DNA of 60,716 bases from a virus: the IMG/VR virus record IMGVR_UViG_3300010392_000328, positions 1 to 60,716 of that record. The stretch is one strand, 5' to 3'. Below are positions 5,400-24,958 of the stretch, one piece after another (within the stretch, counting starts at the first letter, position 1; every line of letters starts with the position of its first letter). Below the pieces are notes generated by a model that was not told the origin of the DNA, searched no databases, and worked only from the letters and a program-made list of their open reading frames with translations. A program made the translations under genes and the position numbers.

Positions 5400-5405
5400 A
5401 AAAGT

Positions 5406-5417: not shown

Positions 5418-5449
5418 CAAAATAAATCATCAATTATAGGAGTTATAAG

Positions 5450-6943: not shown

Positions 6944-7000
6944 CGTTACTAAAAGGAGGATGTGATGACATTCGAAAAAAGAGTAGGTATATAAAAAACA

Positions 7001-7025: not shown

Positions 7026-7086
7026 ATATTATAGTTAATGATGAGATAAGTTACCTTGAGGTATCTTCAACTACTAAGGACACATT

Positions 7087-7470: not shown

Positions 7471-7471
7471 A

Positions 7472-7839: not shown

Positions 7840-7880
7840 ATAATATACACAATGTCTTGATTATATAGAAAGAAAAGAAA

Positions 7881-8084
7881 ATGTTTTATATTAGAGACGA
7901 AGGCGAACCAGTTAAAAACGGATTCAACTTTTATCCGTTAAGTTCAACCAACAGCAGAGGTGTTGTTATCCGTATATGGAAGATTTCTATTTGGATGAGA
8001 TATAGTCTACTAACAAAGAGAATATCCATTAGTTTTAAAAGACAACACAATGATTTGCTTTGTGTCTTAAATAAAAAATGCTAA
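7881..8084 (+). CDS. Hypothetical protein in a segment between direct repeats
   Basis: 67 aa, basic and hydrophobic in the middle (VVIRIWKISIWMRYSLL). The whole ORF lies between two copies of a 19-bp direct repeat (about 7818 and 8090), so it may be an inserted or duplicated segment. The Shine-Dalgarno (AAAGAAAAG) is weak. Confidence 0.45.
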   Translation: MFYIRDEGEPVKNGFNFYPLSSTNSRGVVIRIWKISIWMRYSLLTKRISISFKRQHNDLLCVLNKKC

Positions 8085-8108
8085 AATTCTTGGAGATAGG
8101 ACAGATAC

Positions 8109-8372
8109 GTGACAATTGAAAATATAAAAGCAGGGTTTTGGCAAGTTCAAGACAAAGTTGATAAATCAACTATCCAAAAATTCACAAGTTCATGTGACCG
8201 TGATGATTGCTGTGTCAGTGCCAGAATGATTAGCGAAACAACTTGTATGGGAATATCAGACCATTATTATAAACAGGGTAGATTAATTATCAGCGATCAC
8301 AACAGGCATAAAGTTTCTATGTGTTGTAGTAAATGTTGGCGTCATGAAGTGATGAATAATTATGAAAATTGA
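8109..8372 (+). CDS. Cys-rich hypothetical protein
   Basis: 87 aa with a GTG start at 8109. Seven Cys in SSCDRDDCCV, TTCMG and SMCCSKCW suggest metal binding. GGAGA lies upstream within the repeated 19-bp sequence. It overlaps the next gene by 11 bases. Confidence 0.5.
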   Translation: MTIENIKAGFWQVQDKVDKSTIQKFTSSCDRDDCCVSARMISETTCMGISDHYYKQGRLIISDHNRHKVSMCCSKCWRHEVMNNYEN

Positions 8373-8562
8373 AACAGAAGATTATTTTTGGGAATGCGGC
8401 GATGGTTGCTGCACTCAATACGGAACCTATCTGTATATTGATGGAAAGCTACTGGAAGATCGTGAGTTTAGTAGTTCTGGAGATGCTTATCAGTATGTTC
8501 TAAAAGAAATGCTAGGTCACGAAGTAGATTATATCTACAATGAGGATGAGGATGAAGAATGA
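8362..8562 (+). CDS. Acidic hypothetical protein
   Basis: 66 aa, strongly acidic with an EDEDEE tail and ECGDGCCTQYG near the N-terminus. It overlaps both neighbours, ending in an ATGA junction. Small acidic early proteins sometimes mimic DNA or bind host enzymes. No family recognised. Confidence 0.55.
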   Translation: MKIETEDYFWECGDGCCTQYGTYLYIDGKLLEDREFSSSGDAYQYVLKEMLGHEVDYIYNEDEDEE

Positions 8563-8723
8563 AACCTGATGGAAAATTAATAGCAGAACAACTTGCAAAA
8601 GAATTGGCAAGTGTTCAACCAATGCCTAGTGATTGCTTGAAAAATTTATATGAAGCAAGCAAATCGGAAGATGAACTTAGGAAAGATGGATATGAACCTG
8701 TTAGCGGTTTGGGTCTTATGTGA
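8559..8723 (+). CDS. Hypothetical protein
   Basis: 54 aa, helical (AEQLAKELASVQ). It starts by ATGA overlap with the preceding stop. No motif recognised. Size and spacing fit the array. Confidence 0.5.
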   Translation: MKPDGKLIAEQLAKELASVQPMPSDCLKNLYEASKSEDELRKDGYEPVSGLGLM

Positions 8724-8730
8724 GTAAAAG

Positions 8731-8868
8731 ATGAGTAACAATTGGATAAACTGGCGATTTGGTAAATATCATTTGCAAATCGGACCAGATGAAAGGTTTT
8801 GGATTAGTTTTAGGAAGAACACTTTTTGGGTTTCTCATTCTTATGAGAAATGGTTTGAGAGGTATTAA
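8731..8868 (+). CDS. Hypothetical aromatic-rich protein
   Basis: 45 aa with seven Trp/Tyr-bearing short strands (NNWINWRFGKYHLQIGPDER). It starts 7 bases after the previous stop with a weak Shine-Dalgarno. It probably folds as a small beta sheet. Function unknown. Confidence 0.45.
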   Translation: MSNNWINWRFGKYHLQIGPDERFWISFRKNTFWVSHSYEKWFERY

Positions 8869-9076
8869 ATGAAAATAAAAGCATCAACTACAATTCAACT
8901 ACCAAAATGTATTGACAAATTTCCTACGGAAACTTGGTGCAGAAAAAAGGAAACGTATCCTAACATTCTTTGGACTTTGGACAGCAGAAGATGAATTGTA
9001 TGAAATTCTGTCGGAAGAAATCCGTAATGAAATTGACAAAGAAATTCTTGCAAAGGTGAAAATAAATGAAAACTAA
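8869..9076 (+). pseudogene. Small gene with frameshift
   Basis: From ATG 8869 the frame gives a sensible start (MKIKASTTIQLPKCIDK) and then poor sequence to TGA 8992. A different frame from about 8921 gives a convincing helical tail (FLRKLGAEKRKRILTFFGLW, then EDELYEILSEEIRNEIDKE) ending at TAA 9074-9076. One indel near 8920 would join them. The tail overlaps the next start. Confidence 0.5.
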
Positions 9077-9386
9077 TTGTATTATATGTAAATGCGAAAT
9101 TGACAATTGGGACATTGCCTATCCCGAAAATGAAGCACAAGTTCATCCAATTGGAGGCACTGCATTCCGAACATATGGTCATTATGGTTCTACTATTTTT
9201 GACCCTATGGATGCGACATACCTAGAAGTTGTGTTCTGCGATGATTGCTTGAAAGAAAGATTGGAATATACATATGAAGGTGTCAACCAAAAATACAAAG
9301 CAGAATTGGAGGAACAACGCAAAGAACAAGATGAACTGATAAACTTTATTTTAGAAGAAAGAGAAAATGATGACAACGGTTCGTGA
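9066..9386 (+). CDS. Zinc-ribbon protein
   Basis: 106 aa. NCIICKCEI near residue 6 and VFCDDCLKERLE near residue 58 form a four-Cys zinc site. The C-terminal 35 residues are a charged coiled coil (KAELEEQRKEQDELINFILE). It is probably a small regulatory or scaffolding protein. It overlaps the next gene by 20 bases. Confidence 0.6.
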   Translation: MKTNCIICKCEIDNWDIAYPENEAQVHPIGGTAFRTYGHYGSTIFDPMDATYLEVVFCDDCLKERLEYTYEGVNQKYKAELEEQRKEQDELINFILEERENDDNGS

Positions 9387-9735
9387 ACAAGCAAAGCAAG
9401 AAGCACTGAAAAAACTAGAAGGTCGCAAATCATTGAGAGATGGTATGACATCAGAACAGTTAGATTTTCTTGCGAATTATAACGGTCCTATTGAAGTTGG
9501 GGCAGTTACAAACGCGCACCCACATCATACATCAGAATATGTAGAATGGATGGCAGGGGTTTGGAAAGAAAATTCCGAACGCCAACAATGTAATGTTGCT
9601 TTTGACTTTCTTTCCCCACACAACGGCGAGTACTGGTACAAATGCACCACCTGCGGAGCAAAAGATTGGTTTGCTCGTTACGATCTGCCGTCGAGCAACG
9701 AGCCGATAAAGGGGTGCAAGAATAGTGACTTATGA
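9367..9735 (+). CDS. Hypothetical protein with Cys pair
   Basis: 122 aa. The N-terminal 30 residues are helical, then HPHHTSEYVEWMAGVW and YKCTTCGAKDWF. The CxxC and His cluster may bind a metal. A second ATG directly follows the first (9370). No family recognised. Confidence 0.55.
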   Translation: MMTTVREQAKQEALKKLEGRKSLRDGMTSEQLDFLANYNGPIEVGAVTNAHPHHTSEYVEWMAGVWKENSERQQCNVAFDFLSPHNGEYWYKCTTCGAKDWFARYDLPSSNEPIKGCKNSDL

Positions 9736-10078
9736 TAAGCTTCTCGCATTGGCTCAAAAGCGACGCCAATTAGAAAAAGAAAAACTCCGTAGACATATTG
9801 AAATGGGGTATATCAAAGGAGAGGTGCATCCTAACGGGTCTATATCTTACCAGACTAAACCGAAGGGTATTCGGAATTGGTACGATACTCGCACCCTAAT
9901 AAATCGTGTAGAGAAACGAATGGACATGAATGGGTCATCAGGCGGAGAGAGGTATTGCCCGATCAACGGAAAGTGGCAACTACAGATTCGCGGTAAACAC
10001 ATGCGAAGACTTTTGAAAGCGAGACCGCACTGGAAACAAGTAGGTCGAAAAATAATTGATATGGAGAATGTAAAATGA
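9725..10078 (+). CDS. Basic hypothetical protein
   Basis: 117 aa, GTG start, strongly basic (KRRQLEKEKLRRHIEMGYIK; GKHMRRLLKARPHWKQVGRK), so nucleic-acid binding is plausible. It overlaps both neighbours by a few bases. No domain recognised. Confidence 0.55.
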   Translation: MTYDKLLALAQKRRQLEKEKLRRHIEMGYIKGEVHPNGSISYQTKPKGIRNWYDTRTLINRVEKRMDMNGSSGGERYCPINGKWQLQIRGKHMRRLLKARPHWKQVGRKIIDMENVK

Positions 10079-10371
10079 ATATAGATACAGAAGCGTTTCA
10101 AGAAATAATGTGGGGCGATAACGAAGATTTTAAAGCATTGACCGACACCACAATCGAAGAACAAAGCCGATGGTCAGTTTATAAATCTTGTGTATACAAG
10201 CAGTTGTCTACAGGTAAGCTGTTCGAAGCATACTGGGGCGAAGGCGCGACCGAATATCAAGAAGGCCAATCAGAACCGTGGTCATTAACAGAAGTCGTGC
10301 CTGTAGAAGTTACTGTCACCAAATACAAAACAGCAAAAGACGGTATTCGTTTCGAAGGATACACAGAATGA
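10075..10371 (+). CDS. Hypothetical protein
   Basis: 98 aa, acidic. It contains a run typical of small beta-sandwich phage proteins (YKQLSTGKLFEAYWGEGATE, then VPVEVTVTKYKT). ATGA coupling at both ends. Function unknown. Confidence 0.6.
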   Translation: MNIDTEAFQEIMWGDNEDFKALTDTTIEEQSRWSVYKSCVYKQLSTGKLFEAYWGEGATEYQEGQSEPWSLTEVVPVEVTVTKYKTAKDGIRFEGYTE

Positions 10372-10715
10372 GCAGTAATGTAATGAGCACCGGAATGATG
10401 GTCCCTCTTAATCGTAAGCTAACCGAAGAAGAGCGCGACGACTGGAGCGAAGTTCTTTGGGATCAAAATAGCAATGTAAATTTCAACTACGAAGGGACCA
10501 TGGCGTACACCGACGAAGGCGGTAGCGAATATGGCGTCTACTTCGGCGAGATGACAAGCCTTGATATGTCCAATTTTGATGATCTAAAACAGTTTGGTCT
10601 ATCTATAGTCGAAGATCAAGCTCGACCTTACCGCGAATACTGGTATAACGGAGCAGACTCAGACCACAACATGATGACCCTTGAGGATTTTCTAAAACGA
10701 ACCAAACAAATCTAA
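10368..10715 (+). CDS. Acidic hypothetical protein
   Basis: 115 aa from ATG 10368, coupled to the previous stop; the frame also runs upstream to 10278 inside that gene. Met- and acid-rich, with repeated EYG, FGEM and DMSNFDD segments. It is the last gene before the promoter at 10734. Confidence 0.55.
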   Translation: MSSNVMSTGMMVPLNRKLTEEERDDWSEVLWDQNSNVNFNYEGTMAYTDEGGSEYGVYFGEMTSLDMSNFDDLKQFGLSIVEDQARPYREYWYNGADSDHNMMTLEDFLKRTKQI

Positions 10716-10733
10716 AAAATATTTAGAAAACTA

Positions 10734-10808
10734 TTGACATATCTTGAAGGAGTAGTTACTTTCATACTATAGACAAAAGAGGTCAAGTATGGATTTCACT
10801 ACTCCTTC
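10734..10808 (+). promoter_or_regulatory. Sigma70-type promoter with long-range inverted repeat
   Basis: TTGACA (10734-10739), 17-bp spacer, TACTTT (10757-10762). A perfect 11-bp inverted repeat joins GAAGGAGTAGT in the spacer (10746-10756) to ACTACTCCTTC in codons 4-7 of the HNH gene (10798-10808). The loop of 41 bases holds the RBS and start codon. Only read-through RNA would contain both arms. Confidence 0.6.
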
Positions 10809-11337
10809 TATCATCACAGATGAACCGTCAAAACAGCCATACATTGAAGAATACGGAAAAGTTATGTGTGCTGATCTAGCATTTAAGCAAGCGAAGAAAG
10901 TGCACCTACGTACTCGCCTAGCAGAAGCACAAAATTGGAAGTGTTGTTTCTGTGGCGTCGAAATGATGCAACATCCCAAACAACGAAACAGTGCTACTAT
11001 CGAACATGTGACGCCGCGTTCACAAGGTGGGGCGAATTCAGAAGAAAACTACGCCATTTCTTGCTACACTTGTAACCACAATCGCGGCGATCTTGATTGG
11101 CAAATTTTCATGGATCGTAAACATGAAGTGACCCAAAAAGAAAAAAACAAGCGACAACGTGATATGGAAAAACGCCTCGAAAAGTGGTTGAAAAAAGCAC
11201 ATAAACATGCAGAACTTGATTGGAAAATCAACGATGTTGTTCAGTGTTTTGACGACTGGTTGAACACTCTGAAACTAGGCAAATACAAGGATCAATTCAT
11301 GCAGATGCTTGACGAATCTGGTGTGAAATATACTTGA
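10789..11337 (+). CDS. HNH endonuclease
   Basis: 182 aa. The HNH fold is clear: zinc-binding CCFCG at 52-56, IEHVTPRSQGG with the catalytic His at 73, and SCYTCNHNRG at 91-100. A Lys/Arg-rich helix follows (about 115-145). The early-type position, own promoter and lack of NUMOD repeats suit either a free-standing homing nuclease or a host-DNA nuclease. No neighbour appears interrupted. GAGGT serves as a modest Shine-Dalgarno. Confidence 0.82.
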   Translation: MDFTTPSIITDEPSKQPYIEEYGKVMCADLAFKQAKKVHLRTRLAEAQNWKCCFCGVEMMQHPKQRNSATIEHVTPRSQGGANSEENYAISCYTCNHNRGDLDWQIFMDRKHEVTQKEKNKRQRDMEKRLEKWLKKAHKHAELDWKINDVVQCFDDWLNTLKLGKYKDQFMQMLDESGVKYT

Positions 11338-11362
11338 CATTCGAGCGTCTTTGTAATATCAC
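11334..11362 (+). promoter_or_regulatory. Sigma70-type promoter
   Basis: TTGACA (11334-11339), 17-bp spacer, TATCAC (11357-11362), with an overlapping TAATAT at 11354. The -35 overlaps the HNH stop codon. It would drive the genes at 11393-12421. Only a 6-bp AATATC/GATATT pairing reaches the next start. Confidence 0.5.
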
Positions 11363-11392
11363 GTATGTATGTAAAAAGAAGGTACGATATTT

Positions 11393-11569
11393 ATGTACAA
11401 AGTTAAATACTACTTCGCAACTGGCCGTACGATCACAACCAAATACACTACTGCTAAGCGAGCAAAGCAAGCTGCTATAGAGGAAGTAGAAAGCGGCAAG
11501 TTCGTTAAAGCAGAGTACCTCGGTAAAACCAAACACAAAGCCTGGTGCCCTCGCCAGCACATCGCTTGA
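11393..11569 (+). CDS. Small basic protein
   Basis: 58 aa (MYKVKYYFATGRTITTKYTT), basic, with a strand-strand-helix pattern (AKRAKQAAIEEVESGKFVKA). AAGAAGG lies upstream and the promoter at 11334 is close. Short basic early proteins often bind nucleic acid. No family recognised. Confidence 0.6.
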   Translation: MYKVKYYFATGRTITTKYTTAKRAKQAAIEEVESGKFVKAEYLGKTKHKAWCPRQHIA

Positions 11570-11582
11570 TAGGAGAATGATT

Positions 11583-11858
11583 ATGTCCTTAGATCCCAAC
11601 TATAAAGAAGTGTCTATTTGGGTTGACCGCACCACATATAATGGATATATGGTGTTTGACCATCTAGGAAGTTTCGTTATCACTCAAGATGTGACAAAAG
11701 CAATTGCGTGGGCATTGGATAGGTCAAAAATCATCGGAAGTAGCGAATCCGTCAAAGTGTATTACATAGGCACCGTGGGGCAATACGCAGAAAACCCCGG
11801 TGAGCGGTTTTCGGAACCTTACGATTGGGAGCGCGGTGCTCGAGAGTTGATGGGGTAA
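11583..11858 (+). CDS. Hypothetical protein
   Basis: 91 aa. I start at ATG 11583 because AGGAG at 11571-11575 is spaced correctly for it; ATG 11577 is too close. It is a mixed alpha/beta protein (VSIWVDRTTYNGYMVFDHLG). No motif recognised. Confidence 0.6.
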   Translation: MSLDPNYKEVSIWVDRTTYNGYMVFDHLGSFVITQDVTKAIAWALDRSKIIGSSESVKVYYIGTVGQYAENPGERFSEPYDWERGARELMG

Positions 11859-11872
11859 TTATGGAGCATACC

Positions 11873-12421
11873 ATGGAAGAAGACAAAATCGAGTTTGAAG
11901 AAAATTCGGAACCGATTGAACCAAAAGATTACTTCAATGATCTGAAAGAAAAGATTACTGACGTACAACTGGAGCAACTCGAACGTAACCGAGAATTTCT
12001 CGCAAAAGAGTTGAAGAAGGCGCATTTGATGGGTCAGAAAAACCTGACCCATCAGGCATCTTTCATGTGGGAAATTCTCGAAAAGGAAATGATCCTACAT
12101 GCGACCGGCATTCGCAAATATGTACACCGACAAGATGTTGTGAAACTTATTGATAACGTTTCTCCTAAAAATTCGGTCAAAATTGTCGAGCTGGAAAACT
12201 ACCCTCGATCTATTCCGGACGAGAATATGGAAGATATCATCAAAGCTCAAGATTTGGGATTGTTTGATGTTCTTCTAGTTTTGTATACCGACTTGACCGA
12301 TGAAGAAGTGAATACACCAGAACAAAAAGAATTTGCAGCACGCAATCGTGATCCTGTTGTTTTTGGTATGTTCGTCGAAGATAAAATTAACCTAAACCTC
12401 CAAGAACCAGAGGAATATTGA
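11873..12421 (+). CDS. Hypothetical conserved-looking phage protein
   Basis: 182 aa from ATG 11873, preceded by GGAG at 11863; ATG 11861 is an alternative giving four more residues. It is acidic and helical in the first half. The second half has well-formed segments (NYPRSIPDENMEDIIKAQDL, then LFDVLLVLYTDLTDEE) that look conserved. It is probably soluble. I do not recognise the family. It lies just upstream of the homing-endonuclease insertion. Confidence 0.6.
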   Translation: MEEDKIEFEENSEPIEPKDYFNDLKEKITDVQLEQLERNREFLAKELKKAHLMGQKNLTHQASFMWEILEKEMILHATGIRKYVHRQDVVKLIDNVSPKNSVKIVELENYPRSIPDENMEDIIKAQDLGLFDVLLVLYTDLTDEEVNTPEQKEFAARNRDPVVFGMFVEDKINLNLQEPEEY

Positions 12422-12446
12422 TAATGGAAAAACTAGAGTTCGTTCT

Positions 12447-13260
12447 TTACGATCTATTCAAACGCCCTTTATTCCACCCGTCTGGTATAGGGTTATCAAC
12501 TTCAACTAATAGTTCTTTATCTTTACCGTTATTAACCCATACTCTCTTTACTTTCTTTTTAAATAGACCTTCTTTCCAACCTTTTGGTGGCATATCATCT
12601 ATCGGAATTCTTTTGTTTATTTTTCCGTTATTGATGAATCTTGTTTTTGGTTCTTTTTTTTGTCATCCCCTTATAAAAACCAATAGGTATATCATCTTCT
12701 TTTGATATGTAAAAATTTTCGAAACCGTTTGTGATGCAAATTTTATTTTCTGTCCCCGAATAACCGTTTTTTCTTATTTTATTTTTATGTTCATCGGATA
12801 AAACTCTACCTCTCATTTTTCGGATTGTCTTTTTTTCATTGCATTTGTGCGTTTCTTACCTTTATTGCCTTCTGATATTTTTCTTTTATGTTCTTCTGAT
12901 TTAGGAACACCCTTCCTTCTTATAGACATTCTTTTTTTTACTTTCTTCTGATAATATTGGAAAGTCGTTATTGTGTCGGTTATAAAAACTTTCGTTATAT
13001 TTTGCATTCACTTTATTCAAAAATTTTGTTTCGTATGCTTTCGTATCATCAGCAGTTTGAAATATCTTTATTTTTCTTATGATAAATGCTGACAATCCAT
13101 GTTTTCCAACTATTCTATTGATTATTATCGAAGACGTTTTATACCCCGAATCTACCATGAATTTTTGGGGGTCTGCATCACGCCCCCATTTCGCACCAGC
13201 ATAATACATGCCATTACGAATATCTTGAATGACATAAAAGTAAGGTTGATAAATAGTCAT
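12447..13260 (-). pseudogene. GIY-YIG homing endonuclease with NUMOD3 repeats, three frameshifts
   Basis: Read right to left, the start at 13260 gives a GIY-YIG domain (FYVIQDIRNGMYYAGAKWG). NUMOD3 DNA-binding repeats follow (SEEHKRKISEGNKGKK and SDEHKNKIRK), then NG...IP.GW repeats to TAA at 12447. The frame is broken three times, each inside a run of A on the coding strand: T8 at 12932-12939, T7 at 12830-12836 and T8 at 12654-12661 on the plus strand. Shifts of -1, +1 and -1 restore one continuous protein of about 270 aa. It has its own late-type promoter (13328) and splits a plus-strand gene between two copies of AAAACTAG. It is either decayed or affected by homopolymer errors. Confidence 0.8.
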
Positions 13261-13327
13261 AGCTGTAACTCCTTTGTTGTTATAGAGTAGTTGGGATGCC
13301 TGCCAAAAAATCCGCGAACTACGCTTT

Positions 13328-13335
13328 TATTTATA
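13328..13335 (-). promoter_or_regulatory. T4-type late promoter for the homing endonuclease
   Basis: TATTTATA on the plus strand reads TATAAATA on the minus strand, 68 bases upstream of the endonuclease start at 13260. It lies directly beside the AAAACTAG boundary at 13336, so it appears to belong to the mobile element. Confidence 0.6.
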
Positions 13336-13343
13336 AAAACTAG

Positions 13344-13598
13344 TATTTTATCACAGATTGGGAAGACGAGTTTTGTGACTTGACTTTCACTAAAATGCTC
13401 GATAAAATGTCAGAAATAGGCATCAAAAACCCAGAAAAAACCATTACGGTTGATATTGACCAAATCAATAGTATTGTTGTCAATTCAAAACAAGAAGTAG
13501 ATAAAGTCGATCTTCGTGGTTCTGGCGTTTTTATCCCACAGAACAAACAAAAGAAAACATTTGTGTCTTGGATAAAAGGATTTTTCAAAAATGTCTAA
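13344..13598 (+). pseudogene. 3' part of a small gene split by the homing endonuclease
   Basis: The open frame reads DWEDEFCDLTFTKMLDKMSE and on to a basic tail ending KGFFKNV. The 5' piece appears to be ATG 12424 (MEKL...) with AAAACTAG at 12429-12436; the same octamer recurs at 13336-13343. Joining the pieces at AAAACTAG and removing one T gives MEKLVFITDWEDEFCDLTF, a natural protein start. A short product could still start at TTG 13380 or ATG 13395. Function unknown. Confidence 0.55.
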
Positions 13599-13848
13599 AA
13601 TTCCATATGAGAAAATATCTGATGGTTACTGCGGCTTTTATTACAAACAAGTCGTACTGACAGGAAAATGCAAAACCATCACTGGTGGGCCAATCCACCA
13701 AAACGGGACGAATTACAGGCAAGTGCAAAGATTTTTATTTAGAATGCCGATTTGGAAATCATGGGTTTGTTCGAATAAAATTTGTTTCTTCGAAGAAACA
13801 AAAGAAAAGATTTACGATTGTTCGTGCGGAGAAGAAAATGACTCCTGA
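13591..13848 (+). CDS. Hypothetical protein, probably frameshifted
   Basis: 85 aa as read, starting inside the previous gene end. The N-terminal half (MSKIPYEKISDGYCGFYYKQ) looks natural. From about 13715 another frame gives a better protein (TGKCKDFYLECRFGNHGFVR, then FVSSKKQKKRFTIVRAEKK) that runs in frame into the next gene start. I suspect one indel between 13680 and 13725. Possibly a Cys-containing metal-binding protein. Confidence 0.45.
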   Translation: MSKIPYEKISDGYCGFYYKQVVLTGKCKTITGGPIHQNGTNYRQVQRFLFRMPIWKSWVCSNKICFFEETKEKIYDCSCGEENDS

Positions 13849-14275
13849 TAATGATAAGACCCTACGGGGTCTTTTTCACCACCATAAAATTGGAGTTGAT
13901 GAATGGAACGATCGTCGTGATTATCGCCTTCAATATGAGAAGCAATTTTCTTTAAACGGAAAAGGAAATTTTAGAAATCAAATGGTAGATTTCCTAATCG
14001 CGAATTCTCGTGAAGTCACTATTGTTGAAGATGATCCAAGGTATAAGCAAAACGAAGAAGACTATATCATGTCTTTGGGGAAATATTTTCATGAAAGCAA
14101 AATATACCAATCAATGCGTTACATATGGTCATTCGGGATGTGCCGCGATGAAGATGGCAATTTTACTACATGTGATTGTTGTGGAAGGCAGTTGAACGTT
14201 TTCAACACAACAGGTTATGGGATGTGCGATAGTTGCGAATTAGAAAAAAATATAGAATTAAGCAATATGATATAA
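13838..14275 (+). CDS. Hypothetical protein with C-terminal zinc ribbon
   Basis: 145 aa from ATG 13838 (GGAGAAG upstream). The C-terminus has TTCDCCGRQLN and GYGMCDSCELE, a clear CxxC...CxxC zinc ribbon. The N-terminal 100 residues are charged and helical. It may be a small regulator or nucleic-acid-binding protein. No family recognised. Confidence 0.6.
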   Translation: MTPDNDKTLRGLFHHHKIGVDEWNDRRDYRLQYEKQFSLNGKGNFRNQMVDFLIANSREVTIVEDDPRYKQNEEDYIMSLGKYFHESKIYQSMRYIWSFGMCRDEDGNFTTCDCCGRQLNVFNTTGYGMCDSCELEKNIELSNMI

Positions 14276-14287
14276 GATGAGGTAAAA

Positions 14288-14566
14288 ATGGAGAAACCAA
14301 ACATAGATGATATGACACGTCAAGTTATTTCATGGCGGGGAGAGAATCCACATACAAATGACTTTGAAAAATTTATCAACACACCAAGAGAAGATTTGAT
14401 TATTTACCATTCAACTCTTGGAAGATATATCCGCAACTATTTTAGTTTGTGGTCATACAAACACACACCAGAATTAGTAAATGGGGTAGATGTGTCTCCA
14501 AATCATCCAGACGCTATCAGTATGCGTGTCATCGAAAAGGTTTGGGAGCATTTCCAAAATGTATGA
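14288..14566 (+). CDS. Hypothetical protein
   Basis: 92 aa, helical, with Trp and Tyr (LGRYIRNYFSLWSYKHTPEL). AGGTAAAA upstream is a weak ribosome-binding site. It overlaps the next start by 8 bases. No motif recognised. Confidence 0.55.
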   Translation: MEKPNIDDMTRQVISWRGENPHTNDFEKFINTPREDLIIYHSTLGRYIRNYFSLWSYKHTPELVNGVDVSPNHPDAISMRVIEKVWEHFQNV

Positions 14567-15098
14567 AAAATTCCACTCTGCAAGATTAAAAACAAAATCT
14601 TTCAAAAAAGAAACACCTTATGTGGTCACACGTAAGGTCAACCATCGTTTCAAAGATTGGTTATTTGAAAAAATGTTCCCATTGTTTCAGAAGTGGGGTC
14701 ATTTTAAAGTGTATATGGAAGATGTTGTGGTCGAAACCTTTGACTTTACAGAATCAAAAAAGACAAAAATCACAGAAAAAATCATCGAAGAAATCAACTT
14801 ACGTGAGTGTGATCACTATGAGAGAATAACTCCAGATAAATACATAATATTAATGGGCGAAGATACTTTCTTCGAATATATCTCCGAAGAAAGAAACAAC
14901 AGTCCTTTCTTTGGCGATAATGTTGAATTTATGTCGAATGATATATATTATCATGACCCATATAATGGGAAACGCGCAATGCAGTTTTCTTGTCATATAG
15001 TAAGGGGAATGAAAGGGTTTGCATTTGTTCCCAAAGTAATTTTGGAGGTTAAGAAGAATGGAAGCGATTTCGGTCCCAGAAAAGATTACACCATCTAA
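14559..15098 (+). CDS. Hypothetical protein
   Basis: 179 aa from ATG 14559; the frame extends upstream to 14490 within the previous gene but has no better start. N-terminal basic helices (RLKTKSFKKETPYVVTRKVN) are followed by a mixed domain (MGEDTFFEYISEERNNSPFF). It overlaps the next gene by 41 bases. Not recognised. Confidence 0.55.
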   Translation: MYEKFHSARLKTKSFKKETPYVVTRKVNHRFKDWLFEKMFPLFQKWGHFKVYMEDVVVETFDFTESKKTKITEKIIEEINLRECDHYERITPDKYIILMGEDTFFEYISEERNNSPFFGDNVEFMSNDIYYHDPYNGKRAMQFSCHIVRGMKGFAFVPKVILEVKKNGSDFGPRKDYTI

Positions 15099-15327
15099 AA
15101 ACTACATTTCGTTTTGGAGTACAGACTATCCTGATTATGTTGAAACCATAGAAAGACAGGATCGTCTAGCAAAAAAAATTTACACGTGGTTGAATGATAA
15201 TAACAAAGAGTGGTCAGTTGATTTTGATAGGGGCAATTTTGGCGAAGGTTCTTTATGCGTGTTTATATATTTCAAAACAGAAGAACAGATGAACAATTTT
15301 GTGAAAGAATGGAAACGCAATGAGTAA
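15058..15327 (+). CDS. Hypothetical protein
   Basis: 89 aa, preceded by a strong TTGGAGG. Ferredoxin-like alternation of strands and helices is possible (YISFWSTDYPDYVETIERQD; GEGSLCVFIYFKTEEQMNNF). Its 5' end lies inside the preceding gene. Function unknown. Confidence 0.6.
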   Translation: MEAISVPEKITPSKNYISFWSTDYPDYVETIERQDRLAKKIYTWLNDNNKEWSVDFDRGNFGEGSLCVFIYFKTEEQMNNFVKEWKRNE

Positions 15328-18730: not shown

Positions 18731-19101
18731 AAATGTATATTGCAGTTTTGGATGAATTTCCAGATTATATGACTCCTACCCTTGTGGCACATAGTGTTCT
18801 TGGTGCTCACCTACATTTTATTAGAACTCATACGGAACTTAGTAGAATAATGGATGACGGGCCATATGTATATCCACAATACATTGACTGGCTCAAAAAC
18901 AGTTTTCGCAAGTGCGTAGTTCGTGTCAACCAAAAAGAATTTGATCGTATTGCCACACTACCAAATGTGTATCTTGGTCATGAAAATAACACTCTAGAAG
19001 GTAGGAAATCTTGTGCTGTAGTCTGCCCAATGCCAAATGAAGAACTACCAAACGTATTGAAATTTGCCAAACTATGGCAACCTAAAAAAGAAGGATTATA
19101 A
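18727..19101 (+). CDS. Conserved phage protein, possibly Pth2-like fold
   Basis: 124 aa from ATG 18727 (ATGA overlap). The order of elements resembles peptidyl-tRNA hydrolase 2: an N-terminal strand (MYIAVLDEF), a helix with TLVAHSVLGAHL where Pth2 has GK.AAQ.AHA, then RKCVVRVNQKEFDRIATLPN, a loop, and a final strand SCAVVCPMPN. The catalytic residues do not clearly match. A true Pth2 is present at 24491. The assignment is an inference. Confidence 0.55.
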   Translation: MKMYIAVLDEFPDYMTPTLVAHSVLGAHLHFIRTHTELSRIMDDGPYVYPQYIDWLKNSFRKCVVRVNQKEFDRIATLPNVYLGHENNTLEGRKSCAVVCPMPNEELPNVLKFAKLWQPKKEGL

Positions 19102-19102
19102 A

Positions 19103-19663
19103 ATGGAAGTATTTATCGCCGCAGCTGGTGGCACTTGGTTTGCAATTTTTGCACTGATTGTTCTGATTGGAGGAATTGTATCTGCCGAATTCGATAGTTT
19201 CTTTGGAGGGACTTTCACGCTTATTGTTGGTCTGCTTGGTGCAGATTTCATTTTCGGATACCCTATCGTTGCATCAATCATGGCAAATCCACTTATTGCA
19301 ATTCTAGCGATTGCTCTTTATAGTCTTATCGGGTCTGCTTATACCGGATTTTGGAAGTGGCCAGATTACATTCGTAGTAATTCAGACCTAATTGACGCAA
19401 AATTCAATGAATGGTTGAGAAAAGATAAACAGAACCATTCTTTTGACGAATTCTTGGAATCGGATGAATACAGACCTTTTGGTGCATCTAAAAACAAAGA
19501 ACGTCTATCTGCATGGGTAATGATGTGGCCATTCTCTATGTTTTGGGAACTATCTCGTAAACCTGCTATTTGGGTATTCAACACTAGTTACGAAATGCTC
19601 GGAAGCACGTTCGAAAGTGTCGGCAAAAGCACTGCCAAGAAAATGCATGAGAAAAGCAAATGA
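19103..19663 (+). CDS. Integral membrane protein
   Basis: 186 aa from ATG 19103 (AAGAAGGA upstream). The first 80 residues hold three hydrophobic spans (IAAAGGTWFAIFALIVLIGG; TFTLIVGLLGADFIFGYPIV; PLIAILAIALYSLIGSAY). The C-terminal half is soluble and charged with one further hydrophobic patch (MMWPFSMFWEL). Probably in the host inner membrane. Possible roles include holin-like or exclusion functions, not supported further. Confidence 0.65.
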   Translation: MEVFIAAAGGTWFAIFALIVLIGGIVSAEFDSFFGGTFTLIVGLLGADFIFGYPIVASIMANPLIAILAIALYSLIGSAYTGFWKWPDYIRSNSDLIDAKFNEWLRKDKQNHSFDEFLESDEYRPFGASKNKERLSAWVMMWPFSMFWELSRKPAIWVFNTSYEMLGSTFESVGKSTAKKMHEKSK

Positions 19664-20561: not shown

Positions 20562-20575
20562 AAGCTAGAATAGTG

Positions 20576-20604
20576 TTGACACCATTAGCATATAATGTTA
20601 GGTA
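20576..20604 (+). promoter_or_regulatory. Possible sigma70-type promoter
   Basis: TTGACA (20576-20581). A perfect TATAAT lies only 9 bp downstream (20591-20596); at the standard 17-bp spacing the hexamer is TAGGTA. One of the two boxes may be used with a partner I cannot see. It is positioned to drive the tRNA-related cluster starting at 20627. Confidence 0.4.
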
Positions 20605-20626: not shown

Positions 20627-20911
20627 ATGAACGTAGCAACTATTATTCGTGACCAGATCAAAACACTCGACAAGTGGGCTTTTGGCGCTTGGGGAGCTAA
20701 AGAAATGGTGAACACCGGAAACGGCCTGCGCTTCAAAAGTAGCGGAATGGTCAAATGGAAAGGTTATGTCCATGTTGTTTACGACGAAGGCAATGATCTT
20801 TACAATGTTGTTTTCGGTAAGATTCGTAAAATGGAATGGAAAACTGTAAAAGAGGTCAAAGGCGTATTCGTCGAAGATCTGGTAAATGTAATTGACGCAC
20901 AAGTGGGCTAA
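20627..20911 (+). CDS. Hypothetical beta-rich protein
   Basis: 94 aa with strong alternating strands (GLRFKSSGMVKWKGYVHVVY; DLYNVVFGKIRKMEWKTVKE). The pattern resembles small phage beta-barrel proteins next to RNA ligase or polynucleotide kinase genes in T4 relatives, but I cannot name the family. Strong AAAGGAGA upstream. First gene of the tRNA-related cluster. Confidence 0.6.
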   Translation: MNVATIIRDQIKTLDKWAFGAWGAKEMVNTGNGLRFKSSGMVKWKGYVHVVYDEGNDLYNVVFGKIRKMEWKTVKEVKGVFVEDLVNVIDAQVG

Positions 20912-20920
20912 GGAAATAAT

Positions 20921-22093
20921 ATGAAATACGAATTTCCAGAAATCAAAACAATCGACGACGTCCTTCCTCATATCGAAGGTCGCAAAGATTTTATCGTTGC
21001 CGAGCGAGACTTTGGTTTCGTAATCAACTATAACGTCACACTGCCGGATTCCTTTCCTCCTATCAAATCTGCAGGTGGGTCGGCCAAAGACCGTGCTGCT
21101 CGTCAGCTAACTGCAAAGATGCGTCGTGAATGCCGAGGCATTAAGTTTTACCCTGACGGCAAAATTGCAGCACGTACAATGCAGAAGTTCTTCAACGTCA
21201 ACGAAAAAGACGAGACCCAATTCAAAAATATCGACCTGTCGGAGAATCACGTTATTCTAGACAAGCTGGACGGATCTATGATTCATCCTATCCTGCACAA
21301 AGGCAAGGTTCGTCTATGTACAAAAATGGGCTTCACGGAAATCGCCGAAGATGCTGAGAAGTGGCTGCGCGATAAAACTCGAATCACTACAGAATGGCTT
21401 TATGATCGACTGTCGGCAGGTATCACCGACACTTTCGAGTGGACATCACCTAATAACCGTATTGTTGTGTCGTACGACGAACCTATGCTAACTCTACTAG
21501 CATCGAGGGAGAACATTAGCGGTAAATACGTTGTTCCGGAATGGTGTCCTTTTGAGGTGGTCAAATCATATGGGTCTGCTAAAGAAATCCGGGATTTTGT
21601 AGATTCGGTTAAAGACCAAAAAGGCATTGAGGGATTCATTGGTCGTTTCTCTGATGGACATATGTTTAAGATCAAGACTGATGAGTACGTCTTTATCCAT
21701 AAGACTCTCGACAATATTCGTTTTGACCGTCATATTGTGGACGCTATCTTGAAGGGAGAGATTGACGACACTGTTTCAAAACTTCCCGAGCAAGATCAAA
21801 ACCATGTCCGCGAGTTTGAAAAACATTTCTGGAAGGCATTTGAACAGAAAGAAAATAGGCTGTATGGTCTTCGTATTCGAGCTCAGCAATCGTATAACGA
21901 TGACCGCAAGCGAATCGCAATTGACATGATTCCTAATCTTGAAAATAAGGCCGACGCATCTTTTGTCTTTCGAATGATTGACGGGCATGACCTCAGGAAT
22001 ATGATGCTGGAACACATTAAACAAAATACCAACACCAATGTTAAATGGGACGCATGTGCTATTTGGATGGGTATGGAAAAGAAAACTACATGA
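20921..22093 (+). CDS. rnlA: RNA ligase 1 (T4 Rnl1 family)
   Basis: 390 aa, close to T4 gp63 length. The ATP-charged lysine is K115 in KLDGS (115-119). RECRGIKF near 69-76 precedes it as in Rnl1. Downstream are EWTSPNNRIVVSY, GIEGFIGRF and MFKIKTDEY, the later nucleotidyltransferase motifs. The enzyme joins RNA 3'-OH and 5'-phosphate ends. In T4 it reseals the anticodon loop cut by PrrC, after kinase/phosphatase healing. No polynucleotide kinase gene is in this window. The CCA enzyme, YqeY-like and Pth2 genes follow, so tRNA repair is the likely task. Confidence 0.93.
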   Translation: MKYEFPEIKTIDDVLPHIEGRKDFIVAERDFGFVINYNVTLPDSFPPIKSAGGSAKDRAARQLTAKMRRECRGIKFYPDGKIAARTMQKFFNVNEKDETQFKNIDLSENHVILDKLDGSMIHPILHKGKVRLCTKMGFTEIAEDAEKWLRDKTRITTEWLYDRLSAGITDTFEWTSPNNRIVVSYDEPMLTLLASRENISGKYVVPEWCPFEVVKSYGSAKEIRDFVDSVKDQKGIEGFIGRFSDGHMFKIKTDEYVFIHKTLDNIRFDRHIVDAILKGEIDDTVSKLPEQDQNHVREFEKHFWKAFEQKENRLYGLRIRAQQSYNDDRKRIAIDMIPNLENKADASFVFRMIDGHDLRNMMLEHIKQNTNTNVKWDACAIWMGMEKKTT

Positions 22094-22108
22094 AAGGCCA
22101 TTTATTAA

Positions 22109-22399
22109 ATGAGCACAGATCTAAGCATTAGAGACGAAGCTGTAAATAAGTTTTTTGACCCGGGAGAGAATTTCGAAGTATTCACAAAAGTGGTCCGCGA
22201 TATTCGTCCTAGTTATGGCGAGTTGGAAGTATATGACGTGTCTTTGGGTGTCGAAGAAGATTTAAGTATGTCTATGATGGCCGGAAAGTTTGAAAACGGT
22301 ATCTTAGTAGAAGATCCAATCGAGGTGGTTTTATCGAAGGTGTGGTTTGCCGAGTACCTAATCGAAAAAGATGTTGACTTGCCCGAAATAACTCTTTAA
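22109..22399 (+). CDS. Hypothetical acidic protein
   Basis: 96 aa, acidic (FDPGENFEVFTKVVRDIRPS; YDVSLGVEEDLSMSMMAGKF). Its 3' end contains the -35 and spacer of the promoter at 22374. Not recognised. Confidence 0.55.
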   Translation: MSTDLSIRDEAVNKFFDPGENFEVFTKVVRDIRPSYGELEVYDVSLGVEEDLSMSMMAGKFENGILVEDPIEVVLSKVWFAEYLIEKDVDLPEITL

Positions 22400-22421
22400 G
22401 TTAAAGACAACAAAAGGAGTT
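22374..22421 (+). promoter_or_regulatory. Sigma70-type promoter with anti-Shine-Dalgarno in the spacer
   Basis: TTGACT (22374-22379), 17 bp, TAAGTT (22397-22402). AACTCTTT at 22390-22397 is complementary, with one bulge, to AAAGGAGTT at 22413-22421, the ribosome-binding site of the next gene. The first arm would be absent from RNA begun at this promoter. Confidence 0.55.
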
Positions 22422-22426
22422 ACAAG

Positions 22427-22771
22427 ATGACAGAGACATTTAACTTTTTGGTCAGAATCGAAAAAGGCGCAGTCAACAGCGGTAAAGATGTTACCTTCGC
22501 AATTGTACCTGTCGAAGTTGCTTCTAACATTATGTACAACGACATTCGCATTCAAATCGAAGATGCTCTCGCCGACATTAAACCGGCCGGACATTTCCAT
22601 AGTGTGATTGCTAATTGGCAAGGTGATCTTATGTCGGCATTAGAAGAGGCATCTCGCAATGCTTCCGAAGGCAAATTTCTCCCCGCTATTATGGCAGAAC
22701 ACAGAAACAAAGTAAAAGAGCTAGTAAAAGCTGTGGACATTTGCTACGAAAATAAGGTATTGGAACTGTGA
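22427..22771 (+). CDS. Hypothetical protein
   Basis: 114 aa, helical C-terminus (FLPAIMAEHRNKVKELVKAV). Strong AAAGGAG. It is coupled to the CCA enzyme by TGATG. No family recognised, but its position suggests a partner in RNA metabolism. Confidence 0.55.
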   Translation: MTETFNFLVRIEKGAVNSGKDVTFAIVPVEVASNIMYNDIRIQIEDALADIKPAGHFHSVIANWQGDLMSALEEASRNASEGKFLPAIMAEHRNKVKELVKAVDICYENKVLEL

Positions 22772-23994
22772 TGAAAACTTACTTGGTCGGAGGTGCGGTG
22801 CGAGACATGCTAATGGGTGTCGCATCTAAAGATAAAGATTATGTTGTTGTTGGTGCGACACAAGAAGATATGCTAGACTTGGGATTTACGAAGGTGGGTG
22901 CAGACTTTCCTGTTTTCTTTAGTTACGGCGGCCAAGAATATGCTCTTGCTCGTCGCGAAAAGAAAACAGGAAAAGGTTACTTGGGTTTCGAATCTGAGTT
23001 TGGTGTTGATGTTACCCTCGAAGAGGATTTGTCGAGGAGAGATCTTACGATGAACTCTATCGCATTCCATGTAGATGGTTATGCAGGATACATCGATCCC
23101 TTTAACGGAGAAGATGATATTCGCAACAAAGTTCTTCGCCACACGTCTGATGCATTTCAGGAAGATCCGGTTCGTGTACTTCGACTGGCTCGGTTTAAGG
23201 CTCGCCTTGGGCCCGATTGGACTGTAGCTCCAGAGACAAAGGAAATGGTCTACAATATGGCCAAAAAGGGTGTATTGGATGAGCTCCAGGCAGAGCGAGT
23301 TTGGAAAGAAATGAGTCGTGCGCTTATGGAGGATCATCCGCGCCTATTCTTCGACACTCTGCTAGAGTGCGATGCTCTGCATGTAGTGTTCCCCGAAATC
23401 TATCGGCTCAAGACCGCACTTGAATCTATTCGTTGGCACCCGGAAGGTGACGCATTTGAGCATACGATGTTGGTCCTGACACAAGCCGCAAAAATGGGGT
23501 ATGGTCTAGAGGATCGTATGGCTGCTCTTTGTCATGATTTCGGAAAAGGTCTTACTAGTCGCGACAAACTTCCAAGGCATTACGGTCACGACGTTAACGG
23601 CGTTGCTGTTGTTGATGCTTTTTGCGATAGGCTGAAAGTACCTTCGAAGATGCGAGACCGTCTCAAAAAGGCGACGCGGTACCACATGTATATGCATCGG
23701 CTTGACGAACTCAATTCAAAGACTTTTGTTAAGATGTTCTCCGATATGGATGCTTGGCGAGACCCGGATGTTGTTGTTACTCTTTGGCGCCTAGGCATTT
23801 GCGATGAGCGCGGGCGACTGGGTTCCGAAAATAACAACGTAGGTCACCTGAAAAAGATTGTGGATATCTTTTCTGCTGCTAACGATGTTAAATTTGGCGA
23901 TGTTTTCCCGAATGGAGAAACAAACCCAAATAAGATCAAAGAAGGCATGAGAAAAGCGAGAACTGTCGCAGTCTCGAATGTGCGAAAAAAGTAA
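22771..23994 (+). CDS. cca: CCA-adding tRNA nucleotidyltransferase with HD domain
   Basis: 407 aa. Class II signatures: GGAVRD (7-12), DKDYVVVG near 21-28 with the metal-binding acidic pair, RRDLTMNSIAF near 90-100, and EDPVRVLRLARFKAR near 128-142. The C-terminal half has an HD domain (FEHTMLVL then LCHDFGKG), as in bacterial multifunctional CCA proteins with phosphatase and 2',3'-cyclic phosphodiesterase activity. It rebuilds the 3' CCA end of tRNAs, and the HD part could heal cleaved RNA ends. ATG 22771 is preferred over the GTG just upstream. Confidence 0.93.
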   Translation: MKTYLVGGAVRDMLMGVASKDKDYVVVGATQEDMLDLGFTKVGADFPVFFSYGGQEYALARREKKTGKGYLGFESEFGVDVTLEEDLSRRDLTMNSIAFHVDGYAGYIDPFNGEDDIRNKVLRHTSDAFQEDPVRVLRLARFKARLGPDWTVAPETKEMVYNMAKKGVLDELQAERVWKEMSRALMEDHPRLFFDTLLECDALHVVFPEIYRLKTALESIRWHPEGDAFEHTMLVLTQAAKMGYGLEDRMAALCHDFGKGLTSRDKLPRHYGHDVNGVAVVDAFCDRLKVPSKMRDRLKKATRYHMYMHRLDELNSKTFVKMFSDMDAWRDPDVVVTLWRLGICDERGRLGSENNNVGHLKKIVDIFSAANDVKFGDVFPNGETNPNKIKEGMRKARTVAVSNVRKK

Positions 23995-24013
23995 ATCTTT
24001 TGAAATGGCTACA

Positions 24014-24062
24014 ATATGTTGTGGTTTTTAAGTCGAATTTGCACCAAAAAACCACAACATAT
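24014..24062. promoter_or_regulatory. Long perfect inverted repeat in the YqeY-gene leader
   Basis: 16-bp arms ATATGTTGTGGTTTTT (24014-24029) and AAAAACCACAACATAT (24047-24062) with a 17-base loop. It begins 20 bases after the CCA gene. A TATAAT lies downstream at about 24082 but without a correctly spaced -35. It could be a terminator, an RNA processing site or a protein-binding palindrome. Confidence 0.6.
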
Positions 24063-24128
24063 AGTGTTGTCAAAAAGTCATGTATAATTACACACGAAAA
24101 TGAGAAAACAGAGAAAACGGAGAAAATG

Positions 24129-24491
24129 ATGAAACAAGAGCTAAAAGATCTGTCAATGAAGCTACGTAAAGATCGGTCTCCTTTGGCGTCGACGGTTGTG
24201 TTTCACTTGTCGGAAGTAGCTAAGATCGGCAAAGCAAAAAATCGAGAAACGACCGACGACGAAGCGCTGCAATACGTCAAAAAGGCAGTACAAAAACTGA
24301 AAGAGAACGAGTTTTCAAACAAAGACGAACTCCTTATGCTCGAGACACTTATGCCAAAAATGGCAAGCGAAGCCGAAGTTAAGGCGTTCTTGGATTCTAT
24401 CGACACTTCAAACAAAGGTGCGGTTATGAAAGCTGTCAAGGAAAAGTTTGGCGTTATGGTCGATATGAAAATGGTAGCGGGGATGCTGTAA
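24129..24491 (+). CDS. YqeY-like (GatB/YqeY domain) protein
   Basis: 120 aa, slightly shorter than bacterial YqeY (about 148). It matches the family in order: N-terminal helix ELKDLSMKLRKDRSPLASTV, the TDDEALQYVKKAVQKLKENE segment, ELLMLETLMPKM in place of the usual E..iL..yLP motif, and the C-terminal KGAVMKAVKEKFG. The YqeY domain occurs at the tail of the tRNA amidotransferase subunit GatB and binds tRNA. ATG 24129 has GGAG at the right spacing; the frame upstream to 24000 crosses an inverted repeat and is not coding. Confidence 0.75.
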   Translation: MKQELKDLSMKLRKDRSPLASTVVFHLSEVAKIGKAKNRETTDDEALQYVKKAVQKLKENEFSNKDELLMLETLMPKMASEAEVKAFLDSIDTSNKGAVMKAVKEKFGVMVDMKMVAGML

Positions 24492-24892
24492 TGGATCCTA
24501 TTCTTTACATTATTATGCGTAGCGATATCTCGGACATGAATCCCGGCAAACTGGCGGCTCAGGCAGCACATGTTGCTAGTGATTTCGAGATGTGGGTTAA
24601 GTTTATCGAGAGTCAAGACGGATACGGTGAGCTGCTAGGTGAGATTCATAAGTGGCGAGAAGGCGCGTCAACTTGCGGTACCACGATATGCTTGTCGGCT
24701 ACTCGGGAAGAAATTCAAGATACCGTGAAAAAAGTGTGCTTTTCTCGAGAGTTCGTAGACCCTACATATCCTTGGGAAAACTGGTACGGAGAATCGTTTC
24801 TTTCAAGTGAGATGACAGGTGCTTGGGTTTTTGTGTGCGAAGAAAACTCGGAAGACTTGGATGTAACAAAAAAGTTCGCCCTGCATTATTAA
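24491..24892 (+). CDS. pth2: Peptidyl-tRNA hydrolase 2 (Pth2)
   Basis: 133 aa. The catalytic-face signature NPGKLAAQAAHV is at 17-28, preceded by the family strand ILYIIMRSD. The middle (CGTTICLSATREEIQDTVKK) and final strand (GAWVFVCEEN) fit the fold. Pth2 frees tRNA from peptidyl-tRNA released by stalled ribosomes. It starts on the last base of the YqeY-gene stop (TAATG), so translation is coupled. Pth2 is typical of archaea and eukaryotes but occurs in some phages and bacteria. Confidence 0.85.
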   Translation: MDPILYIIMRSDISDMNPGKLAAQAAHVASDFEMWVKFIESQDGYGELLGEIHKWREGASTCGTTICLSATREEIQDTVKKVCFSREFVDPTYPWENWYGESFLSSEMTGAWVFVCEENSEDLDVTKKFALHY

Positions 24893-24903: not shown

Positions 24904-24958
24904 TTGACTAGAGGCTGCGTTTGTTTTATGTTTGTTTGTAACATTAAAACAAACGCAG
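24904..24958 (+). promoter_or_regulatory. Sigma70-type promoter with 13-bp inverted repeat reaching the RBS
   Basis: TTGACT (24904-24909), 17 bp, TATGTT (24927-24932). Perfect arms CTGCGTTTGTTTT (24915-24927) and AAAACAAACGCAG (24946-24958). The second arm runs into the AGGTG Shine-Dalgarno of the gene at 24967. The first arm spans spacer and -10, so transcripts starting here lose it. Confidence 0.7.

Follow-up and report, generated by a model that had tools for sequence, protein, structure and literature searches.

A locus encoding an Rnl1-like RNA ligase, a CCA-adding enzyme with an HD domain, a YqeY-like protein, and a Pth2-like protein has been identified in the window, the whole 60,716-nucleotide stretch of viral DNA that was analysed. 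With a probability of about 0.6, the locus belongs to a genome-wide toolkit for tRNA upkeep, which finishes, heals, reseals, and recycles tRNAs in a T4-like phage. The analysis shows the identities of the genes with their folds and motifs, the 3′ ends of the tRNAs, the homology of the kinase, and the linkage in genomes, and we infer the enzymatic activities, the cooperation of the parts, and a defence against host systems that cut tRNA. The CCA-adding enzyme is predicted to add CCA to the tRNAs of the phage and to be able to re-tail damaged ones. Its HD domain would probably take 2′,3′-cyclic or 2′-phosphates off cut RNA ends, a separate kinase of the T4 PNK type would restore the 5′ phosphate at cut tRNA ends, and the ligase would then reseal them. 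The Pth2-like protein is predicted to free tRNA from dropped-off peptidyl-tRNA, and the YqeY-like protein has a putative translation-linked role.

The window is part of the genome of a T4-like phage, the host of which is probably an alphaproteobacterium. A fuller record of the same phage (IMG/VR 3300010430_000005, hereafter G001, 150 kb) differs from the window by one mismatch in the compared overlap. G001 further encodes 30 tRNAs and a permuted tmRNA. Among its proteins are Thg1, a second RNA ligase, one that resembles TilS, a stand-alone HAD phosphatase, and one with a macro domain. No tRNA or Rfam RNA was found inside the window, and the tRNA genes are located at 1–20 kb of G001. The nucleotidyltransferase RlaP, sought as a missing partner, is absent from G001. 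The window also contains NAD-salvage genes and a NADAR-like gene.

The sequence-only reading had placed four tRNA-acting genes together, and they do lie on one strand (+) within 4 kb. The order is Rnl1, two small open reading frames of unknown function, the CCA/HD enzyme, the YqeY-like gene, and the Pth2-like gene. The cluster does not start at 20,627, as had been proposed: the open reading frame there (20,627–20,911, 94 residues) belongs to a family without function (phrog_9437, E = 1.4e-8), lies immediately 5′ of Rnl1, and probably shares a transcript with it. The first of the two frames between Rnl1 and the CCA enzyme (22,109–22,399, 96 residues) has no Pfam or PHROGs match at E < 0.05. No confident Pfam or PHROGs family was found for the second (22,427–22,771, 114 residues), the stop codon of which overlaps the start of the CCA gene. 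The gap between the CCA and YqeY-like genes contains an A+T-rich inverted repeat with a stem of about 16 bp (24,011–24,062; fold z −2.8 for the 131-nt region), followed by a promoter-like element, AGTGTTGTCA-N10-TATAAT (24,063–24,088), 5′ of the YqeY–Pth2 half. A similar element, AGTGTTGACA-N9-TATAAT (20,572–20,596), precedes the Rnl1–CCA half. No further site of this kind occurs in the window or the rest of G001, and an exact match to a canonical sigma-70 promoter (TTGACA, 16–18 bp, TATAAT) was found in neither. Because the hairpin and the promoter-like element separate CCA from YqeY, the four genes probably form two transcription units.

The 390-residue ligase (20,921–22,093) matches PF09511 (E = 9.5e-27) and phrog_562 (3.4e-69), and its score against the Pfam family RNA_lig_T4_1 is 94.7 bits, above the cut-off of 28.3. 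Its KxDG motif (K115, D117, G118) is invariant in the alignment columns. The match to T4 Rnl1 (2c5u, E = 1.9e-26) covers residues 69–373 and includes the C-terminal domain. However, the protein scores 152.5 bits against the NCBIfam equivalog TIGR02308, the cut-off of which is 242. Judged by these profiles, the ligase is Rnl1-like, and the TIGR02308 score does not establish equivalence to RnlA. That no polynucleotide kinase is present holds for the window but not for the phage, which encodes one at 74,017–74,523 of G001, 38 kb from Rnl1. This kinase has a P-loop (GxPxxGKST), resembles T4 PNK (1ly1, E = 1.8e-13), and consists of a single domain with no fused HAD phosphatase. Its score to seryl-tRNA(Sec) kinase is similar to that to T4 PNK, and therefore RNA 5′ ends are only a candidate substrate. 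In ten cultivated phages a homologue of the kinase follows immediately downstream of Rnl1, with 54–304 bp between the matched stretches; one of them, RHph_I1_18, has a CCA–Thg1–Rnl1–kinase block. These neighbourhoods point to the T4 PNK-type kinase as a recurrent partner of Rnl1.

The CCA-adding enzyme (22,771–23,994, 407 residues; phrog_2244, E = 2.7e-122) is of class II and of the E. coli Cca type with a C-terminal HD domain. It passes NCBIfam NF008137, the family of E. coli multifunctional CCA addition and repair proteins, with 470.3 bits (cut-off 451). Its invariant motifs are GGxVRD (G7, G8, R11, D12), DxD (D21, D23), RRDLT (R89, R90, D91), and DPxR (D132, R135). The HD motif (H255-D256-G-K) is intact and invariant, and the HD region matches phrog_6931, a family of HD and kinase fusions that includes the HD plus kinase protein CP21_070. 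The motif, the NF008137 score, and the phrog_6931 match speak for the suggestion that the HD domain of the CCA enzyme could heal 3′ ends. According to PMC10673834, which cites Yakunin 2004, E. coli Cca has both CCA addition and 2′,3′-cyclic phosphodiesterase activity. Against healing by HD domains counts one study of the Deinococcus HD–kinase protein, in which HD-motif mutants kept 3′-phosphatase activity (PMC1997131); a search of the open-access literature by name found no dedicated paper on HD–kinase proteins beyond it. The HAD protein at 32,001, also put forward as an end healer, was rejected as the 3′ phosphatase. It is not counted in the set because in relatives it is found repeatedly beside PhoH rather than with RNA repair genes, and it follows the kinase in a single record (L040). 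HAD_SAK_2 (G001 57,578–58,093) is a better HAD candidate.

The 3′ CCA is encoded in 10 of the 30 tRNA genes of G001 and is missing from the other 20, of which 19–20 keep C74. Completing the phage's own tRNAs is therefore the best-supported task of the CCA enzyme, and it would account for the enzyme no less well than anti-defence would. In other phages CCA is encoded in 53/60 tRNA genes where a CCA enzyme is present and in 46/53 where it is not. On these counts, phage CCA genes are not tied to CCA-less tRNAs in general, and maturation therefore does not explain the gene across phages.

It is possible, although somewhat unlikely, that the locus is instead a dedicated counter-defence island, the genes of which are kept together mainly to undo the tRNA damage of host immunity, caused by anticodon nucleases like PrrC and VapC or by tail cutters such as Cas12a3. 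T4 Rnl1 and Pnkp act in this way, undoing the damage of PrrC to tRNA, and the presence of the NAD-salvage and NADAR-like genes in the window fits such a role. The authors of the study on Cas12a3, which cuts CCA tails, note that phages would need an unknown resistance (PMC12851939). However, with phage tRNAs that lack CCA the CCA enzyme has a housekeeping task, and the kinase required for anticodon repair lies outside the island.

The YqeY-like protein (120–121 residues, 24,126–24,491; phrog_1460, E = 1.4e-13) most likely starts at 24,126 or 24,129, not at the mechanical start 24,000. On its own it misses the Pfam PF09424 cut-off (18.7 bits versus 27); the family profile is matched by 13/13 relatives at E = 0.01 or better, and the profile of the protein matches the YqeY structure 8xjg (1.2e-15). 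The predicted structure (pLDDT 91) superposes on 8xje with Z = 12.9 and an rmsd of 2.5 over 116 residues, and together profile and model confirm the YqeY fold. The YqeY-related domain of GatB binds tRNA, but we know of no such binding by a stand-alone YqeY.

The Pth2-like protein (24,491–24,892, 133 residues; phrog_1866, E = 1.2e-17) belongs to a divergent phage branch. Its model (pLDDT 95.4) superposes on S. solfataricus Pth2 (1xty) with Z = 14.8 and an rmsd of 2.0 over 115 residues, which confirms the Pth2 fold at the level of the model. Among 48 diverse phage Pth2-like proteins, the positions of the catalytic Lys and Asp (K20 and D90) and H27 never vary and Q24 hardly does, and D90 aligns with the Asp of two solved Pth2-family proteins. 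In place of the third catalytic residue, the Thr four residues past the Asp (Thr90 in S. solfataricus), there is an invariant Pro (DPTYP), and the protein is therefore filed as Pth2-like and not as a proven Pth2. The replacement, together with a single-sequence Pfam score below the cut-off (20.1 versus 23), would suit a protein of Pth2 fold with another function, for example in binding or regulation, instead of a peptidyl-tRNA hydrolase. This is unlikely given the conserved residues, the fold similarity to a real Pth2, and the repeated linkage of the gene to tRNA genes and repair genes; PF01981 is found in 43/48 of its relatives.

A bolder version, which we regard as doubtful, is a tRNA life cycle in which the phage, with its 30 tRNAs and permuted tmRNA, is almost self-sufficient. 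The tRNAs, most of them CCA-less, would depend entirely on the phage CCA enzyme for completion, healing would be split between the HD domain and the separate kinase, YqeY would be an unrecognised factor of the tRNA cycle working with Pth2, and the common promoter-like element would mark both halves as one regulated set.

A survey of neighbourhoods in other phages bore out the pairwise linkage of the genes but not their order as a unit. All four genes occur together in 12 of the 28 Pth2-bearing records; an adjacent unit in the same order was met in no other record. Partial sets are Pth2–CCA–YqeY (L046 and L048), Rnl1–Pth2–CCA (L102), and Rnl1–YqeY (L035). Pairs within 10 kb were counted against a random-placement null, with PhoH and RNR as controls. 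Enrichment was found for Pth2–YqeY (9/14, expected 1.5), Pth2–Rnl1 (9/20, expected 2.0), CCA–YqeY (6/13, expected 1.3), and Rnl1–kinase (8/18, expected 1.8), and was absent for both controls. The counts within 10 kb were not significant for Pth2–CCA (5/21, expected 2.2, p = 0.057) and Rnl1–CCA. The recurrent Pth2–YqeY linkage is a genomic hint to the role of the widespread, unexplained YqeY family. Fortuitous proximity, in which each gene acts alone in an accessory-gene insertion site of the early or auxiliary region of a T4-like genome, would accommodate the unique order, the membership shuffled among relatives, the two non-significant pairs, and the second role of Rnl1 in T4, tail-fibre attachment, with which the phrog_562 annotation agrees, but is improbable in view of the four enriched pairs, the controls, and the contiguous block of RHph_I1_18.

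In recent work tRNA is a main target of anti-phage immunity, attacked by anticodon nucleases and by the CCA-tail cutter Cas12a3. A phage with a ligase, a CCA enzyme, a kinase, a Pth2-like protein, and tRNAs that need CCA offers a direct test of whether such genes repair tRNA tails and bodies or serve only the maturation of the phage's own tRNAs. It is well suited to such a test by its arrangement, its wider genome, and tRNA genes that mostly lack the tail. The type of toolkit has already been predicted for large phages, and the combination, which the sequence-only reading had not seen described, has precedents in a jumbo-phage survey (PMC7824862) and in RaK2 (PMC3622015).

The jumbo-phage set of RNA repair and ribosome rescue proteins (Iyer 2021, PMC7824862), which is predicted to undo what host attacks do to tRNA, likewise includes ATP-grasp RNA ligases, a kinase, HAD or HD phosphatases, a CCA enzyme, Thg1, and PTH2. 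By contrast, the phage described here is of about 150 kb or more, has four of the genes side by side, encodes an E. coli-type CCA enzyme with an HD domain and mostly CCA-less tRNAs, and has a YqeY-like protein, which is not mentioned in that survey. Klebsiella phage RaK2 encodes an RNA ligase, a kinase, a CCA enzyme, and Pth2; unlike in the present locus, its genes are scattered, as judged from the ORF numbers, and YqeY is not named in the available part of the report (PMC3622015). The T4 repair pair is resembled in the Rnl1-like ligase with its C-terminal domain and in the T4-PNK-type kinase. However, the kinase is single-domain here, unlike T4 Pnkp, and the 3′ healer may be the HD domain of the CCA enzyme, HAD_SAK_2, or another protein. 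In HD–kinase proteins (phrog_6931, phage RM378 PNKP, and D. radiodurans DRB0098), the HD motif aligns with that of the CCA enzyme, but HD and PNK domains are fused, whereas the present phage has its HD domain on the CCA enzyme and encodes the kinase as a protein of its own. Rhizobium phage RHph_I1_18 has the CCA, Thg1, Rnl1, and kinase families contiguous in 4 kb; however, its Pth2 lies tens of kilobases away and YqeY was not found in it by tblastn. The Sinorhizobium phages phiM12 and phiN3 (Emdodecavirus) share a portal protein that is 55% identical, a CCA enzyme (45%), Pth2 (34–36%), and Rnl1 (29%, phiN3), and also encode a YqeY-like protein, NMNAT/Nudix, NAMPT, a macro domain, and the kinase. 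Unlike the phage described here, both have few tRNA genes, and in phiN3 the genes corresponding to the locus are spread 5 to 78 kb from Pth2.

The four tRNA-related genes that the sequence-only reading placed together form a real cluster, and profiles, motifs and structure models show that their identities were correctly assigned. The gene for Rnl1 (20921–22093) is recognized with E-values of 1e-26 in Pfam and 3e-69 in PHROG. The match of its residues 69–373 to the solved T4 Rnl1 therefore includes the C-terminal domain; the protein is below the stricter NCBIfam equivalog cut-off. The CCA/HD enzyme (22771–23994) is above the equivalog cut-off of the E. coli "multifunctional CCA addition/repair" family, with every motif kept and H255-D256 of the HD domain invariant. 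The YqeY-like (24126–24491) and Pth2-like (24491–24892) proteins are weakly recognizable from their single sequences, and their identification is based on profiles and models. Profiles built from relatives match solved YqeY (1.2e-15) and solved Pth2-family proteins (4e-6). The YqeY-like model (pLDDT 91) matches Campylobacter jejuni YqeY with a Z of 12.9, and the Pth2-like model (pLDDT 95) matches Sulfolobus solfataricus Pth2 with a Z of 14.8. K20 and D90 are invariant across 48 phage Pth2-like proteins, in which the aspartate is followed by DPTYP, with no threonine at position +4. Because this position, which is catalytic in Pth2, is changed, the protein is classed as Pth2-like and its hydrolase activity as putative.

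The window is itself a virus record of 60,716 bases, and the phage is represented more fully by a 150,280-base record, G001 (IMG/VR 3300010430_000005). The first 8.3 kb of the window equal G001 91709–100000 with zero mismatches, and a 21-kb stretch spanning the locus differs by one base. The phage has a T4-like portal protein, which shares 55% identity with its counterpart in Sinorhizobium phages phiM12/phiM7/phiM19. G001 contains 30 tRNA genes (1618–15111), which share one 20-kb region with a permuted, two-piece tmRNA of the alphaproteobacterial type (18978–19299; RF04321, 105 bits; predicted tag ANDNYAPEMAIAA; CCA apparently encoded). The host is therefore probably an alphaproteobacterium, as judged from the tmRNA type.

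The genes for Rnl1 and the CCA enzyme are separated by two unknown ORFs. In the gap between the CCA and YqeY genes, a promoter-like element follows an A+T-rich hairpin with a stem of about 16 bp. The element, AGTGTTGWCA-N9/10-TATAAT, spotted post hoc, has only two copies in the window and the remainder of G001 combined, each at the head of one half of the cluster: one (window 20572–20596) precedes the ORF upstream of Rnl1, and the other (24063–24088) precedes YqeY. This suggests two putative transcription units with one kind of promoter. A strong A+T-rich hairpin (24915–24958; z −3.6), similar in style to that ahead of YqeY, precedes a cell-wall hydrolase gene.

The strongest direct evidence for the job of the CCA gene comes from tRNA 3' ends. 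CCA is encoded in 10 of the 30 tRNA genes of G001, so an enzyme must supply at least part of it for the other 20, which keep C74 but not C75 and in most cases read CTA (20/20 by eye, 19/20 by script). Four other phages with CCA genes encode it in 53/60 tRNA genes (Fisher p 2e-7 against G001), and five phages without a detected CCA gene in 46/53. The loss is thus peculiar to the G001 phage against the nine compared. Trimming back to a C stump might account for the retention of C74.

The sequence-only reading noted that a polynucleotide kinase was missing, which holds for the window only, since G001 encodes a T4-PNK-type kinase (74017–74523). The gene of an HD-type phosphohydrolase (73299–73976) ends 40 bases before it, and the two are possibly a split HD-kinase pair. 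The suggestion in that reading that the HD domain of the CCA enzyme heals 3' ends is plausible, with the kinase then acting in trans, because both that HD region and the separate kinase match phrog_6931, an HD and kinase fusion, and because HD-kinase enzymes are known from phage RM378 and Deinococcus radiodurans (DRB0098). The Campylobacter phage CP21 member of phrog_6931 has both halves, with an HD motif that can be aligned to the one in the CCA enzyme. In DRB0098, the kinase activity has been shown and the HD phosphatase activity has not (PMC1997131). An equal candidate for the 3' healer is the HAD_SAK_2 phosphatase (G001 57578). This HAD family is named after Swiss Army Knife RNA repair proteins.

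G001 also encodes Thg1 (76001–76831), a macro domain (69339) and a DRB0094-type RNA ligase (66853–68019; 129 bits, under the equivalog cut-off of 151); RlaP was not found in it. A TilS-like lysidine synthetase domain (48619–49242) is above the equivalog-domain cut-off and occurs alongside several tRNAs with a CAU anticodon; with it, the phage may produce lysidine tRNA-Ile for itself.

HMM searches of fetched loci from relatives found partial gene sets in shuffled order: Pth2-CCA-YqeY (L046, L048), Rnl1-Pth2-CCA (L102), Pth2-CCA (L006), Rnl1-YqeY (L035), Pth2-Rnl1-kinase (L117) and CCA-Thg1-Rnl1-kinase (RHph_I1_18). All four families occur together in 12 of 28 large Pth2-bearing records. Conservation lies in pairwise linkage and not in gene order. 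The records had been picked by a Pth2 match and are partly related. With one near-duplicate excluded, many pairs were tested against random placement, and a distance of no more than 10 kb was seen for Pth2-YqeY in 9/14 (expected 1.5), Pth2-Rnl1 in 9/20 (2.0), Rnl1-kinase in 8/18 (1.8) and CCA-YqeY in 6/13 (1.3, p 0.0006). Proximity of Pth2 to CCA was not significant (5/21, p 0.057). The placement null disregards genome modules; the control genes that guard against this, PhoH and RNR, had no significant proximity, and the results are unchanged without the window's own phage. In ten cultivated phages, a kinase homologue starts 54–304 bases past the end of the Rnl1 match.

Elsewhere in the window, genes for an NMNAT/Nudix protein (306–1364), a NADAR-like protein (3691–4173) and nicotinamide phosphoribosyltransferase (5450–6943) are likely an NAD+ salvage set, which could counter NAD-depleting defences. 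A homing-endonuclease-like ORF (39500–40960; phrog_3339) and an ORF that is GIY-YIG-like by eye (40995–41810) lie next to the point near 41 kb where the coding strand changes.

The interpretation in the sequence-only reading was partly over-read. The jumbo-phage toolkit and its logic, PTH2 included, had been set out before (Iyer et al. 2021, PMC7824862), and RaK2 carries four of the parts (PMC3622015). YqeY-like genes of T4-like phages were noted near tRNAs in pf16, and in Aeh1 alongside a gene of the poly A polymerase family. Phage tRNAs overcome tRNA-cutting defence (PMC11555353). Cas12a3 cleaves CCA tails, and according to its authors any means of phage resistance is unknown (PMC12851939). 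For such resistance, an obvious candidate would be a CCA enzyme encoded by the phage, a proposal not found stated in the literature examined. The toolkit is of a known type and is of fresh interest in three respects: its association with YqeY, the decay of the encoded CCA ends, and a split layout of end healing.
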